Assembly (NCBI GenBank): GCA_937995755.1
Contig: CALKJD010000064.1
Coordinates: forward strand, 1-64,000
DNA: 64,000 nt
From: an uncultured Saprospiraceae bacterium
GTDB taxonomy: Bacteria > Bacteroidota > Bacteroidia > Chitinophagales > Saprospiraceae
Direction: 5' to 3'
Shown: piece by piece, positions 31,137 to 44,458 of the stretch
How the letters are laid out: every line of letters starts with the position of its first letter
Numbering within the stretch: position 1 is the stretch's first letter
Position numbers and translations under genes: made by a program
Notes under the pieces: model-generated
The model's input: only the letters and a program-made list of their open reading frames with translations
Told to the model about the DNA's origin: nothing
Database searches by the model: none

Positions 31137-31589
31137 TTAGTCCATATAGTTAGGGATGGTATCTAAGAAGGTAACACTCTTTGTTGATTTATCTATAGCA
31201 CAACAGTAGGTTTGTACACCGTTGGTAACCAGAAGGTAAGGAGCATTGAGTGTGATGTTATATCTAGCTGCTTGATCTAATACGGATTGATTGATTGGTT
31301 CTTTATGAGATTTACATTCAATCAGTAAATATGGTTCTATAGATTGATCATATACTATGATGTCGTATCGTTTATATTGACCTAATACCAAGAGCGATTT
31401 TTCCACTTGTATTCTAGATATAGGGTAGTCTAGTTTTTGGGTGAGATATAATATGAGCAGCTGCCTTACGAGTTCTTCAGGTTGAGGTACGAGGTACTTT
31501 TTCCTGATTGGATCCCATATTAGTGTAGTATCTGCTTCTGACTTTAGTATTAGTTGGGATCTAAATTCATGAAGATTGATATCTATCAT
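31137..31589 (-). CDS. HSDR_N-type PD-(D/E)xK nuclease-like protein
   Basis: RQLLILYLTQKLDYPISRIQVEKSLLVLGQYKRYDIIVYDQSIEPYLLIECKSHKEPINQSVLDQAARYN (D...ECK core intact). Confidence 0.82.
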   Translation of the reverse strand: MIDINLHEFRSQLILKSEADTTLIWDPIRKKYLVPQPEELVRQLLILYLTQKLDYPISRIQVEKSLLVLGQYKRYDIIVYDQSIEPYLLIECKSHKEPINQSVLDQAARYNITLNAPYLLVTNGVQTYCCAIDKSTKSVTFLDTIPNYMD

Positions 31590-33454
31590 AAGGCAAAGTT
31601 TGCATTAGCCGTAGTATCACTAGAGAGATAGGTGGAAAGGTGCATAGATAAGTCAATATGATTCAGTGTATCTTCTATGTTGATAGTGATTACTTTGTAT
31701 CCTGCGGAAGACAAGCTTTGGATGACTAATCTTTGCCAGATATAATGTTCTGTTTTTCGCACATTTAATAGGTCATCATATATAAGTATGATTTTTTCCT
31801 TATCCTCAGCAAGAATACTTCCTTTGAGGAGGTCAGCAACAGATTCTCCTTTTAGCTCGTTGATTTTTGCACTAGCGAATAATCGAAGTAATTCTTCAGT
31901 ATCTATTGCGTCAAGACATGATATAATATTAAGTGCCTTAGTTTGATATACCTTGATCTCTGAAGTAGAAGCCAATATCGCTTCAGTCAGTTGATTAGCT
32001 TGTTTGCTTTGGCTGAAGTAGTCTAATGTAATTATGGGTTTAATATTGTCCAGTGCTTTATCGACCAATGTTATAGATGCTCTCTCTTTTGTAGCGATTT
32101 GATTACTTAAGATATAATGTACGCCATCATACAGAACTTGATAATTTGCAGTACTTACTATATTGGACTTGAGGTGGATATTACTCCAGTCTATACTAGC
32201 ATTTAGATCTTTATATGCTTCAAATAAAGCTAAAGAATCATCTGCAGTAGGTATTCCTCCCTGCCAAGCTAGATTTTTCCACTTTTGTATTTCTAGATAT
32301 TTCACCTGATTCTGCAGCTCAGACTGGTCTAGAGTTCTGAGTATATCTATTATAGTCTTGTCAGTAGGATTTAAGGTAGCATAAAATCGTCTCCAACGAA
32401 TGTAGTCTGACTCGTCGCTGAGCCAATATTTGCAAAAGTGCAATTGATTTAGCAAGCCTTTTACTTGAATGATCTGTGTTTCATAGCTAAGTGGATTATT
32501 TGATATATCGACTTTAAGTAATCCATTGATGTTAATTTCACTTAATACTGCTCTAAGTTCATGCATGGCCTCATATATAAGGACCGATTGATGATTGCGA
32601 CTATTGAATCTTCTACTATGTCTGGCGAGATACTTAGTTGTCACACTTTCCCAATTGGAAACAGCATACATGACCAGTTTAGGGAATTCACCAATAGCAT
32701 CTTTTGGTAAATCAGCCAACAAGAAACCCATCTTTTTTCGCATTTGGTTCAGCTCAGTTTCAGCTTGGCTATGTTGGTAATTGACGAGATGCTGAGATAG
32801 TTGTTTTTTAATAGATAGTATGCGAAGTTTTTCTTCCTCAACGATTTCGTTAAGTCCATTTCGCATGTCTGTGTATATAGATGCGACAGTCTCTATCCAT
32901 AGGTTGAGATCTAGAAGTAATGAATCATCGATTGTATCTGTGTAATACTTGCTGTGTAAAGGGTCTATATCAATATATCTTTCCCATGTTCGTTTATAAC
33001 TTGATAGTAAAGGCGATAGTTCTTTAGTATGATAAGAAAGAATGTCAGCTGAATCTTCTAATCTATGGTCAAGTTGTAATTTGTCAGATAGCGAAAGATC
33101 GTATGATTGTAGTAGGTCTATATATTTATGTCTAAGTGTAGATCCATCTCTATTGTAACAATAGTCAAACTTCCTCTTGAGATTTGCGACAACATTATTA
33201 TATGTATCAGCTAATGTCTCTACTTCTTGGTTAATCTCAGGTTGCGAATGACGTTCTTTATAGTTTTGTAAATGTCTATAAGTATGTGGATTACAGCATA
33301 TAGCAATCTGTTCGTCTTTGATGAGAAGATTGATAATTTCTATTATTCCATTGATACTTGTAGAGTATACATCTATAGGATCGCCGGACTCTAAGCTCCT
33401 TAAAGCTTGGAGTTGAGTAGGAGAGAGGTGCTCTGTTGGCAAAGTGTAGATCAT
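31586..33454 (-). CDS. Hypothetical 622-aa protein, possible degenerate SF1 helicase-like protein
   Basis: Long ORF with coding-like composition; ATGA overlap with the downstream HSDR_N gene; helicase relation inferred by eye only. Confidence 0.6.
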   Translation of the reverse strand: MIYTLPTEHLSPTQLQALRSLESGDPIDVYSTSINGIIEIINLLIKDEQIAICCNPHTYRHLQNYKERHSQPEINQEVETLADTYNNVVANLKRKFDYCYNRDGSTLRHKYIDLLQSYDLSLSDKLQLDHRLEDSADILSYHTKELSPLLSSYKRTWERYIDIDPLHSKYYTDTIDDSLLLDLNLWIETVASIYTDMRNGLNEIVEEEKLRILSIKKQLSQHLVNYQHSQAETELNQMRKKMGFLLADLPKDAIGEFPKLVMYAVSNWESVTTKYLARHSRRFNSRNHQSVLIYEAMHELRAVLSEININGLLKVDISNNPLSYETQIIQVKGLLNQLHFCKYWLSDESDYIRWRRFYATLNPTDKTIIDILRTLDQSELQNQVKYLEIQKWKNLAWQGGIPTADDSLALFEAYKDLNASIDWSNIHLKSNIVSTANYQVLYDGVHYILSNQIATKERASITLVDKALDNIKPIITLDYFSQSKQANQLTEAILASTSEIKVYQTKALNIISCLDAIDTEELLRLFASAKINELKGESVADLLKGSILAEDKEKIILIYDDLLNVRKTEHYIWQRLVIQSLSSAGYKVITINIEDTLNHIDLSMHLSTYLSSDTTANANFAL

Positions 33455-39673: not shown

Positions 39674-42600
39674 TTAAAAGGGATAAAGAGCACCACCATC
39701 CTCACCACTGCCAGGCCCCAACGTAATTACTCGATCTGCCGCTCCAATCAAAGTTTCATTATGCTCAATAAACATTACCGTATCTCCTAGATCTACTAAA
39801 GATTGGAAGACATCAATCAACTGTAGTATATCAAAGTAATGTAATCCTGTACTAGGCTCATCGAAAAGATATAACGTAGCACCTGTCCGACTTCCTATCA
39901 TACTCGATGCCAATTTGAGACGCTGAGCTTCTCCTCCAGATAAGGTGTTAGCTGCTTGTCCAAGGAGTAGATGTCCTACGCCTACTTGTTGTAAGGTACT
40001 TAGCTTTTTTGTTATTGTTTCATCCTCGAAAAAATCGACGGACTCTAACACAGTCATTTGTAATATATCGCCTATAGATCGATCCTTTAGCTTACAATCT
40101 AGAATGGAATTATTATATCTCATACCCTTACAGCGGTCACAAGTGAGCCAGATGTCACTCATGAAGTCCATACTTGTTTTTAGTTTGCCATGACCATTGC
40201 AAGTTGGGCATTTCCCTTTTTTGCTTAGATATGAAAAATCCGCTTTTTTAAATCCTAAATCTTTGGCTTTATCTGTTTTTGAATATATGGATTTGATGTG
40301 ATCCATGATGCCAGTAAGGGTTAGGGGAGTGCTCAATCTACTTTGTGCGCTGGCTTCTTGATCTATGAGTAAGACTTTTGTAAATTGACCCATTCCGAAT
40401 ATGGAGGCACAATTCGTCGGTCTACCTTTACTCCATGAGCGATACAATACATCTCTTATCAGACTAGACTTTCCACTACCAGATACACCTTTGATGGCTG
40501 TGATCTGTTCAGTGTAAAAAGTTACATCTATTGATTTTAGGTTGTTGGCAGTGGCAGCTTTGACACCAAAGGATTGACCGTCTTTATTTTCTATTCTTGT
40601 TTTTGGGTGAGTAAGTAATTGCTCTTCTTGGAACATTTTATAAGTCACAGATTCTTGGGCTTGATGGATATTAGCTACGGTACCTTGATAGATGACTTCG
40701 CCACCCAACTTTCCAGCGCCAGGTCCCATCTCTATCAGATAATCTGCATTACGGATGAAAGACGAATCGTGCTCTACAACTATTACTGTATTGCCATTCT
40801 TTACAATTTGTTGAAGTAGTTTTGTTAAGACTTTGATTTGCTCAGAATCTAATCCTATTGTAGGTTCGTCTAATACATAGCTAACTCCAAATAATTTTGA
40901 GGAGAGTTGACCAGCTAATGTAACTCTCTGTCGTTCTCCGCCTGACAATGTACTTGCAGATCGAGTTATGTTTAAGTATCCCAAGCCTAGATCCACGATG
41001 GTCTGTAGCGAATTGATTACAGATGGTAACACTACTTTGCTGATAGCTAATATTACTGGATCTATTTTAGGGGTTTTGTTTTCACTATCTGTTAGTGTAG
41101 ATTGTATCAATGCTAGACAAGAAGAAATACTCAATTGTGAAAGCTCATGAATATTGCGCCCCAAGAAATTAATATTTAGTAACTCTAACTTTAAACGACT
41201 GCCATTACAACTCGGACACTTAACGTTATGGAGTAATTCTTCTACCGATTTGATGTTTTTATTATTTCTTTTTCTCTCATATTCATCATTGATGTAGTGG
41301 CATAGTCCAACCCATTTTGCTTTTAGATTTTGTGAGCCACTTCTTGATTTTGTGATGTATTTCCAAGTGACATCATATATGGTGTCTCCAGTTCCATATA
41401 GGACTACATCACGTATTTCATCATCTAACTCATTCCATGGTTTATCTATATCATAGTCTTTCTGTTTAGCGACTTCTTTGAGTGTTGCTATGAATTGACC
41501 ATTGATATCGGCATAGTATCCGATGGCTTTATTACTTGACACAGCACCTTCGAATATGGAATGATCATGTGATACGATTATAGCAGAGGGATCGCATTTT
41601 TTTAATGTTCCTATCCCAGCACACACTGTACATGCACCTAAGTGATGGTTGTATGAGAAATGCTGTGCGGTATAGATATGGCTTTCATGTTGAGCGATAC
41701 GAGAATACAATAGACGAAAAGCATCATACACTCCAGATAATGTTCCTACCGTAGATCTCGCTGAAGGACTTCCGCCTTTTCGATTGATACCAATGGCTGG
41801 CCCTAGACCAGAAAACGAAGTAATTCGCGCTTCACTATTTTGCTGTAGAAAACTTCTGTTGTAAGTAGAAAGTGATTCTGTAAATCGCGCATTAGATTCT
41901 GCAAATATAGTATCATAAACTAATGACGATTTTCCACTCCCAGAAACACCAGTCACTACAGTCAATTGGTTTTTCGGTATTCGTACATCAATGTTCTTAA
42001 GGCCATGAGTAGTAACACCGTTCAATATTATCTCATTAGTGTTATCGGAACATTTAGTATTAATGTTAGGTTGAGTAAGATCATAAGGCTTAGTTGGGTC
42101 TCCTAACTCAATATGCCAATCACTCATTTCGATGATGGATTCATCTTGCTCAATGCAGACGATCGTATTTCCTTTTTGCTTTATCCGATCAAATAACATT
42201 AACAACGTTTGTATATCATCATAATGCAAACCTATACTAGGTTCTATGATAATGTATATTGTATCTCCAGAATCGCGTTTCTGTAATTGATTCGCAATTT
42301 TTATTCGCTGAGCTTCTCCTCCAGAAAGAGTAGTAGAGGATTGTCCAAGTCTCAGGTAGCCGAGTCCAATATCTTGTAGGATCTGGAGACCTACAAGTAT
42401 TTTATTTTGATCTGAAAAAAAGGTAATCGCTTCATCAATGGATAATTGATAGACATCTGCGATTGACTTTTCTAAATACTTTATCTTAATTGTCTCTTCA
42501 TTGAATCGATCTCCATTGCAGGTGCCACACACCAATTCAACATTGCCTAAGAAATGCATTCCGATCTGAGTTTTTCCTGCACCTTGACAAGTTTCACATC

Positions 42601-44458
42601 TACCACCTTTATTATTAAATGAAAATCTTGATTTTGTAAATCCTTGTACTTTAGAATCAGGAATAGACGCATAAAGATCTCTTATATGGTCAGATATTCC
42701 GAGGTAGGTTGCAGGATTACTTCTTGGCGTTTTGCCAATAGGTGAATGATCAATAAATATAAGTTGATTAATTGCATCTAGATGAGTGTGGCTTTTGACT
42801 TTTATAGTACCTTCTATTTCTTGACCCAAATGCTGCTGTACTGCTTTGAGTAAAGTGCCTTTCACCAAACTAGTTTTTCCTACTCCTGACTTTCCGCTGA
42901 CTACGTTTAATTTTCCGATTTGAAACTCTACGTCTAGGTGATTGAGGTTGCGCTCGTGGCAACCTATGAGTTGAATAGTCTTAATCGGTTCATTATTCTT
43001 TTCGGAATCTAGGCTAGATTTAGTTTTATCATGTCTTGGATTTGCAGTTGACTTTTGGATCGCTCTATATGTTGGACTTAATTTGTTCAGTTCTTCTTTC
43101 TGAGAAAATTCTGAATATGAACCATTGAAAACTACTTCACCACCATCAACACCAGCTCCTGGTCCGATCTCTATAATATGCTCTGCACTAGTGATCGTAT
43201 CTAGGTCATGCTCTACGACGATTACAGTATTACCTTTTTGGACAAGTCGTTTGAAGTGATGAATTAATACTTTGTTTTCTTGTGGATGTAAGCCTATACT
43301 TGGCTCATCAAAAACGTATAGTACATCACTCAGCGGCACCAAAATCTGATTAGCTAATCGAATCCTTTGTATCTCACTTGCACGAAGCGTTTTTGCAGAT
43401 CGACCCAAAGTTAAGTGACCTAATCCTAGCTCTTCTAGTAAGTCTACTTGCGCTTCTATTTTATTAATGATTTCATTAGCTACTGTCTTCCAAGCATACG
43501 TTTGTATCCAAGACTTAAGTTCTCTTAGTTTCCAAGTCACCACCTCCGTTAGAGATTTATCATATACCTTCACGGAGCGTGCGAGATCATTAAGTCTTGT
43601 ACCTTTACAATCTGGACAAGTCACAGCATGCACATACTTCAGAATATTTGCATTGCGATCTCTGCGAAGTATATCTGACATAATGGGTATCATACCTTTA
43701 TAATGTCCTTCTTCACGTGGTTTCGCTTTGATGCCTGTCCACTTTAGCCGTGATTCCAAGCTGTGCTTTCCAAATGGTACTTTGATCTTGTCACTTCCAT
43801 GAAGGATTATTTTCTGTTGTGCTGATGTCAGTTCATTCCAAGGTATATCTACATTGAATCCTTCGGCCTCGCATACTTGATTGAGTACATCGATAGTTAC
43901 CTGTGAGTACATGATATATCTATTGGGTAATGTTGGTGCTAGTGCACCTTCTCGTATCGTTTTTTCTGGATGAGTGATTAGTCGATTGAGATCTATCTGC
44001 TCTTCTTTACCGATACCATTACATCTAATACATTTACCTACTACAGAGTTGAAAGAAAACAATGCTCTTGATAGCTCAATATCTTGGTTGGTCTTACCTG
44101 TCCGCGCATATAGTAGCCGCAATAGATCATAGAGATCTGACATAGTCCCCACCGTAGATCTTGCATGCATACCTGTGGTGCGTTGTCCAATGGCAATGAC
44201 TGGACTTAGCCCTTCGAGTACATCGACATCAGGGCGATTGAGCTTGCCCATAAACTGACGTGCAAATGAGGGGAGTGTTTCAAAATATCTACGTTGTCCT
44301 TCTTTTGATATAATTTCTGAAACAAGGCTAGATTTACCTGAGCCGGAGACGCCTGTAACCACTATAAATTTATGATGAGGAATACACAACGAGATATTTT
44401 TCAGGTTGTTGGTTCTCGCACCTCGTATAACTATCTCTGGGCTCTTCTTAGATGACAT
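39674..44458 (-). CDS. Fused double UvrA-like excinuclease ABC subunit A (four ABC modules, no UvrB-binding insert)
   Basis: Four Walker A motifs (GVSGSGKSSLV, GKSGVGKTSLV, GVSGSGKSSLV, GVSGSGKSSLI); three LSGGE signatures plus one LRASE; UvrA-type Zn CxxC modules (CPDCKGTRL, CETCQGAGK...CGTCNGDRF, CPSCNGSRL, CPTCNGHGK...CDRCKGMRY). Confidence 0.93.
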   Translation of the reverse strand: MSSKKSPEIVIRGARTNNLKNISLCIPHHKFIVVTGVSGSGKSSLVSEIISKEGQRRYFETLPSFARQFMGKLNRPDVDVLEGLSPVIAIGQRTTGMHARSTVGTMSDLYDLLRLLYARTGKTNQDIELSRALFSFNSVVGKCIRCNGIGKEEQIDLNRLITHPEKTIREGALAPTLPNRYIMYSQVTIDVLNQVCEAEGFNVDIPWNELTSAQQKIILHGSDKIKVPFGKHSLESRLKWTGIKAKPREEGHYKGMIPIMSDILRRDRNANILKYVHAVTCPDCKGTRLNDLARSVKVYDKSLTEVVTWKLRELKSWIQTYAWKTVANEIINKIEAQVDLLEELGLGHLTLGRSAKTLRASEIQRIRLANQILVPLSDVLYVFDEPSIGLHPQENKVLIHHFKRLVQKGNTVIVVEHDLDTITSAEHIIEIGPGAGVDGGEVVFNGSYSEFSQKEELNKLSPTYRAIQKSTANPRHDKTKSSLDSEKNNEPIKTIQLIGCHERNLNHLDVEFQIGKLNVVSGKSGVGKTSLVKGTLLKAVQQHLGQEIEGTIKVKSHTHLDAINQLIFIDHSPIGKTPRSNPATYLGISDHIRDLYASIPDSKVQGFTKSRFSFNNKGGRCETCQGAGKTQIGMHFLGNVELVCGTCNGDRFNEETIKIKYLEKSIADVYQLSIDEAITFFSDQNKILVGLQILQDIGLGYLRLGQSSTTLSGGEAQRIKIANQLQKRDSGDTIYIIIEPSIGLHYDDIQTLLMLFDRIKQKGNTIVCIEQDESIIEMSDWHIELGDPTKPYDLTQPNINTKCSDNTNEIILNGVTTHGLKNIDVRIPKNQLTVVTGVSGSGKSSLVYDTIFAESNARFTESLSTYNRSFLQQNSEARITSFSGLGPAIGINRKGGSPSARSTVGTLSGVYDAFRLLYSRIAQHESHIYTAQHFSYNHHLGACTVCAGIGTLKKCDPSAIIVSHDHSIFEGAVSSNKAIGYYADINGQFIATLKEVAKQKDYDIDKPWNELDDEIRDVVLYGTGDTIYDVTWKYITKSRSGSQNLKAKWVGLCHYINDEYERKRNNKNIKSVEELLHNVKCPSCNGSRLKLELLNINFLGRNIHELSQLSISSCLALIQSTLTDSENKTPKIDPVILAISKVVLPSVINSLQTIVDLGLGYLNITRSASTLSGGERQRVTLAGQLSSKLFGVSYVLDEPTIGLDSEQIKVLTKLLQQIVKNGNTVIVVEHDSSFIRNADYLIEMGPGAGKLGGEVIYQGTVANIHQAQESVTYKMFQEEQLLTHPKTRIENKDGQSFGVKAATANNLKSIDVTFYTEQITAIKGVSGSGKSSLIRDVLYRSWSKGRPTNCASIFGMGQFTKVLLIDQEASAQSRLSTPLTLTGIMDHIKSIYSKTDKAKDLGFKKADFSYLSKKGKCPTCNGHGKLKTSMDFMSDIWLTCDRCKGMRYNNSILDCKLKDRSIGDILQMTVLESVDFFEDETITKKLSTLQQVGVGHLLLGQAANTLSGGEAQRLKLASSMIGSRTGATLYLFDEPSTGLHYFDILQLIDVFQSLVDLGDTVMFIEHNETLIGAADRVITLGPGSGEDGGALYPF

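Follow-up and report, generated by a model that had tools for sequence, protein, structure and literature searches.

An uncultured Saprospiraceae bacterium (assembly GCA_937995755.1) carries a real, conserved and apparently undescribed two-gene module, in which the gene of a 150-aa HSDR_N_2 nuclease-like protein (HsdR_N) is preceded and overlapped by the gene of a 622-aa protein whose family is supported, by profile comparisons, as a descendant of an Upf1/DNA2-like SF1 helicase. The window, i.e., the whole stretch of DNA analyzed, comprises 64,000 nucleotides (positions 1 to 64,000 of contig CALKJD010000064.1). No paper on this gene pair was found in the literature searched. The features of the locus are as follows.

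31137..31589 (−): gene of the 150-aa HSDR_N_2 PD-(D/E)xK nuclease-like protein; PF13588 E 1e-33, core residues invariant
31586..33454 (−): gene of the 622-aa helicase-derived partner, a short form of its family; intact ORF
31586..31589 (−): ATGA stop/start overlap between the 622-aa gene and the 150-aa gene; TCAT on the + strand
33275..33454 (−): residues 1-60 of the 622-aa protein, remnant of RecA-like domain 1A, with a Q-motif-like LSPTQ followed by strand, dead P-loop and helix
33344..33367 (−): YSTSINGI (residues 30-37), lost Walker A position; columns match GASGTGKT of the long helicase L111 and GKKSSGKS of genus g93
32204..33232 (−): helical stalk, residues 75-417; AF2 pLDDT mostly 67-94, conservation
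31997..32038 (−): PIITLDYFSQSKQA (residues 473-486), start of the C-terminal domain (alignment, AF2 secondary structure)
31667..32020 (−): C-terminal alpha-beta-beta-alpha-alpha-beta-alpha-beta domain, residues 479-596; AF2 pLDDT 77-88, homology to the C-terminus of the long forms

Both genes are genuine and under purifying selection

Both open reading frames were found at the positions given in the initial annotation, together with the shared ATGA that it had described, and the same −4 ATGA overlap is also present in three further species of the window genus (L131-L133). The frame of the 622-aa gene is unbroken in four species of the genus, with a pN of 0.25-0.37, well below a pS of ~0.77 at which synonymous sites are saturated. 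This codon comparison identifies the frame as a real gene and rules out a chance ORF or a pseudogene. For the 150-aa gene, the frame is also unbroken and pN within the genus is 0.09-0.18, synonymous sites being saturated. Overall, the 622-aa gene and the HsdR_N gene are genuine genes under purifying selection, the partner evolving much faster (47-59% identity within the genus vs 78-85% for HsdR_N).

The 150-aa protein matches PF13588 (HSDR_N_2) over all 110 positions of the model with 116 bits, for a cut-off of 25. Across 27 diverse HsdR_N copies, residues E63, D76, E91, K93 and Q106 never vary, and the window copy reads E91-C-K93; the D...ECK PD-(D/E)xK core first noted in the small protein is fully intact. 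For the collection scan, a narrower HsdR_N alignment worked where a broad one proved too divergent. HsdR_N may be the live PD-(D/E)xK nuclease of the pair. With its standard core, it is one of the orphan HSDR_N_2 proteins (PF13588) of Bacteroidota; these are usually solitary or located beside holA, recQ, dnaG or other genes, whereas here the protein is coupled to a helicase-derived partner. Of 199 genomes sampled in the host family, 189 carry HsdR_N, and no paper on the role of orphan HsdR_N proteins turned up in the literature searched. A type I restriction system (HsdR) was considered and rejected, since the protein stops after the N-terminal domain, without a motor, and no hsdM or hsdS is present among the nearest neighbours.

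The pairing is conserved in 21 genera

We searched 398 genomes with the family profile and then checked the positions of the matches. In 53 of the 56 evaluable genomes, a family member of 620-800 aa directly precedes HsdR_N in the same orientation; the three exceptions all belong to genus g3, and one further genome was cut by a contig end. The pair was seen in 21 genera, two of them added later, and at the paired loci the genes as a rule overlap or lie very close together. A separate named collection yielded 16 paired loci, several from the same genomes, under the titles of Saprospiraceae, Saprospirales or other Bacteroidota MAGs. This gene-neighbourhood survey confirms that the coupling first proposed from a single locus is conserved in relatives: the pairing of HsdR_N with the ex-helicase is real and old.

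In genus g3 (G005), the HsdR_N gene shares 4 nt with the end of the primase gene dnaG (L070:5960-8436), and a 711-aa pseudo-helicase is encoded elsewhere in the genome, away from it. Three solitary proteins of 710-770 aa from genera g19 and g7 (L212, L213, L218), with no HsdR_N nearby, resemble long helicases that were shortened separately.

The 622-aa family is homologous to long SF1 helicases

Searched directly, the 622-aa protein matched nothing significantly in Pfam, NCBIfam, PADLOC or PDB sequences, and nothing usable came from the partner family profile against the PDB or from family members against Pfam. In comparisons of short with long forms, a profile of 13 partners aligned with a profile of 17 long homologues from the P-loop to motif II (hhalign, probability 100, E 2.6e-44) and with a single long protein, L111, at E 1.7e-24. 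The last 60 residues of the short and long families also aligned, profile against profile, at E 4.7e-6 (60 columns), and in the stalk region the window protein alone matches the long-helicase profile (E 1.4e-5). The long relatives measure ~1,250 aa and, in the 398-genome search, were matched by the family profile over its first three quarters only. They keep intact SF1 motifs (GxxGxGKT, DEA[HQ], GD..Q and TRATQ) in several genera, show Pfam AAA/DEAD matches and sub-threshold C-terminal MTES_1575 nuclease matches (E 8e-5 in L126), and match the PADLOC models PDC-S37 (5e-30) and Hhe (1e-17). The family is thus homologous to bona fide SF1 helicases and not to an unrelated family, and the initial description of the 622-aa protein as a pseudo-helicase holds for its SF1 homology and its lost motifs, but not for the place assigned to motif II.

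Short and long proteins are separated by one branch with an SH-aLRT support of 99, in an unrooted tree that contains several long branches. We observed no genus with both forms, for 6.8 expected (P 9e-5 assuming independent genera, which they are not), in a survey that scored two candidates per genome and counted as long forms the strong matches listed. Other families of the order have long forms too, whereas the complete short forms observed all come from the window's family.

The helicase motifs are lost and the stalk and C-terminal end are kept

Residues 1-60 of the window protein align, via the family profile, to residues 262-320 of an intact long helicase, and the family alignment places YSTSINGI on the GASGTGKT of intact relatives, as had been proposed for the replaced P-loop. 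No DEx is found at the motif II position of the window protein. A profile spanning motifs II to VI gave no match in the window genome or genus, and the region of motifs III-VI (domain 2A) is absent from the alignment. The sequence PIITLDYFSQSKQA, first thought to sit at the motif II ('vviDEASQ') position, instead opens the C-terminal nuclease-like domain according to the alignment and the secondary structure; the motif II strand would be expected around residues 430-450, where the model is poor. The stalk corresponds to a segment that the long helicases carry inserted between motifs Ia and II; its residues N284, N287 and W354 are conserved. The C-terminal domain, the best-conserved part of the short family (W573, Q574, G585), shares homology, through the 60 columns mentioned above, with the nuclease end of the long helicases, which is MTES_1575-like. 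Since the families align from the P-loop to motif II and again at the C-terminus, the short form has lost domain 2A, while its stalk and C-terminal end were retained.

Walker A is kept in 12 of 17 long forms vs 2 of 31 short forms, both of the latter from genus g93, and one short form among the 31 matches a motif II regular expression (CLEFDEA in L129). In g93, four species keep G[KN]KSSGKS; motif II was identifiable in three of them and has the sequence ENA there. With Walker A present and motif II eroded, g93 looks, from its motifs, like a fossil or living intermediate. The g93 short forms (L107/L108/L222-L224) are coupled to HsdR_N and yet carry Walker A, which suggests that, in this line, the coupling preceded the loss of ATP binding. 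Several long forms also carry eroded motifs, which indicates that the motor was lost more than once.

We built AF2 models of the window protein and of a 782-aa homologue from a 17-sequence alignment (pLDDT 73.5 and 76.4, pTM 0.56-0.57). The model of the 782-aa homologue has a RecA-like order of strands and helices, interrupted by the long helical stalk. The head of the window protein reached a pLDDT of 32-53 for residues 1-60 and of 30-40 near residues 420-470, and was better modelled in the 782-aa homologue; as it is mostly unmodelled, this head may have ceased to be a folded domain. Whole-model Foldseek searches of both models against the PDB gave coiled-coil-type matches only, none significant, and no helicase or nuclease. 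The window copy is among the most reduced members of the family; it has lost so much of the RecA-like domain that it amounts to the relic of a helicase more than to a dead one that still folds.

The neighbourhood favours chromosome maintenance

In the window, the pair is surrounded by genes for RecF, PDH E1, an SDR, Kbl, an epimerase-like protein, CorA and ribonucleotide reductase, and its position is fixed in the genus, sister species sharing the neighbour order. Other HsdR_N copies adjoin dnaG (−4 overlap), recQ (five loci) or holA. These housekeeping neighbours, along with the adjacency to recQ, dnaG and holA, favour chromosome maintenance over defence for the HsdR_N module.

Further observations were made around these loci. 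The recQ gene is directly upstream of an unpaired HsdR_N, on the same strand, at L046, L138, L140, L141 and L201. Many unpaired HsdR_N genes (L142, L162, L158, L175 and others) follow a gene of ~350 aa, several copies of which contain a WCPxCGxWGW thioredoxin-like motif; the one tested had no Pfam match. The window also encodes, at 39674..44458 (−), a 1,594-aa tandem UvrA of two UvrA-like units, which matches uvrA models and the tandem-length PRK00635.

Discussion

Known systems offer partial parallels to this pair. PriA belongs to SF2, a helicase superfamily other than SF1. The PriA pseudohelicase of Deinococcus radiodurans has lost ATPase and unwinding activities and kept DNA and partner binding (PMC4504706); it resembles the window protein as a motor-dead helicase and differs in that it is not described as coupled to a nuclease gene. 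Hhe (HheA), filed under SF1_Upf1 (PMC10925250), and the PADLOC candidate PDC-S37, for which no paper was found in the literature searched, are SF1 Upf1-like helicases whose models are both matched by our long homologues. By contrast, the window protein, the partner of HsdR_N, has a third to two fifths of the model length, retains none of the catalytic helicase motifs and matches neither model.

In AddB and RecC, inactive SF1 helicase domains contribute DNA binding to a nuclease complex (PMC4824097, PMC1185551), and the nuclease domain of RecC is also dead (PMC1185551, PMC4824097). These subunits of break-resection complexes share with the window protein an inactive SF1 helicase combined with a nuclease or nuclease-like C-terminal domain in a non-motor subunit. 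However, the window module has neither a live helicase subunit nor domain 2A, and its nuclease is a separate 150-aa HsdR_N. As for the hallmarks of AddAB/RecBCD, neither protein of the pair matches a UvrD-like helicase or the RecB-type nuclease PF12705. AddB/RecC is the closest working analogy for the module, without membership. The pair as a substitute for AddAB is weakened by an AddB-like PDDEXK_1 (PF12705) protein, the only one in the genome, on another contig.

The reading we prefer, to which we give about an even chance, is that the pair constitutes a nuclease module, inherited vertically, that serves chromosomal DNA maintenance and in which the ex-helicase is a DNA-binding or regulatory subunit. 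The ancestor would have been a ~1,250-aa SF1 helicase (Upf1/DNA2-like, related to Hhe and PDC-S37) with a nuclease-like C-terminus, which would have lost domain 2A (motifs III-VI) first and the ATP-binding and DExx motifs afterwards. The resulting 622-aa protein would work without ATP as a long helical subunit, either DNA-binding or regulatory, by which the HsdR_N nuclease is positioned or restrained, on the model of AddB and RecC with their inactive helicase parts. We infer that the two proteins form a physical complex, in which the stalk or the C-terminal domain would bind DNA; the 'scaffold' function first proposed for the 622-aa protein is likewise presumed, as is a part in replication or repair instead of defence. 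Several results weigh against this reading: the pairing is not universal, the partner diverges much faster than HsdR_N, and Foldseek returned no helicase or nuclease from the PDB for the AF2 models, whose pTM is only 0.56-0.57. A bolder and more tentative version is that a large helicase of the anti-phage type was domesticated in Saprospiraceae into a motorless, ATP-free subunit controlling the near-universal HsdR_N nuclease in chromosome maintenance, and that it replaced the ancestral long helicase wherever a genus carries it, g93 being the living intermediate.

An anti-phage defence module, in which a decayed helicase of the Hhe/PDC-S37 type would feed a restriction-type nuclease, is unlikely. 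It would account for the PADLOC matches of the long relatives, for the fast evolution of the partner and for HSDR_N being the nuclease domain of type I restriction subunits. Nevertheless, the partner itself has no PADLOC match, and PADLOC hits at E<=1e-15 among the nine window neighbours were limited to RecF and the UvrA-like ABC protein, both generic ATPase matches. The near-universal occurrence of HsdR_N in the family and the fixed position of the pair in the genus also argue against defence, as does the same epimerase-like gene following HsdR_N at 7 of 21 paired and 29 of 74 unpaired loci, followed in turn by kbl in 7 and 17.

It is quite unlikely that the two genes share an operon and a pathway while their products act separately, the partner being for example an RNA- or DNA-binding protein issued from the role of the long helicase, and HsdR_N a bystander. 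Solitary short forms without an adjacent HsdR_N in genera g3, g7, g19 and g57 indicate that the partner can work alone, but the 4-nt or similar overlap persists over 21 genera while other flanking genes change. Finally, we consider improbable that the 622-aa protein is a decaying, nearly functionless relic held by operon structure beside an HsdR_N that acts alone: most genomes have HsdR_N without such a partner, many of them with unrelated upstream genes, little of the helicase head is left in the AF2 model of the window copy and erosion recurs among the long forms, but frames are intact across the 21 genera, pN is far lower than the saturated pS, the stalk and C-terminal domain have conserved W, Q, G and N residues, and Walker A is selectively retained in g93.

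For the Saprospiraceae, the existence of a conserved partner with translational coupling offers a concrete way into the function of the nearly universal orphan HsdR_N. The graded series formed by the intact 1,250-aa helicase, the 790-aa coupled form with Walker A, the 780-aa form without it and the 620-aa relic provides an unusually complete record of the passage from an enzyme to a non-catalytic subunit, comparable to AddB/RecC and contained within one bacterial family.
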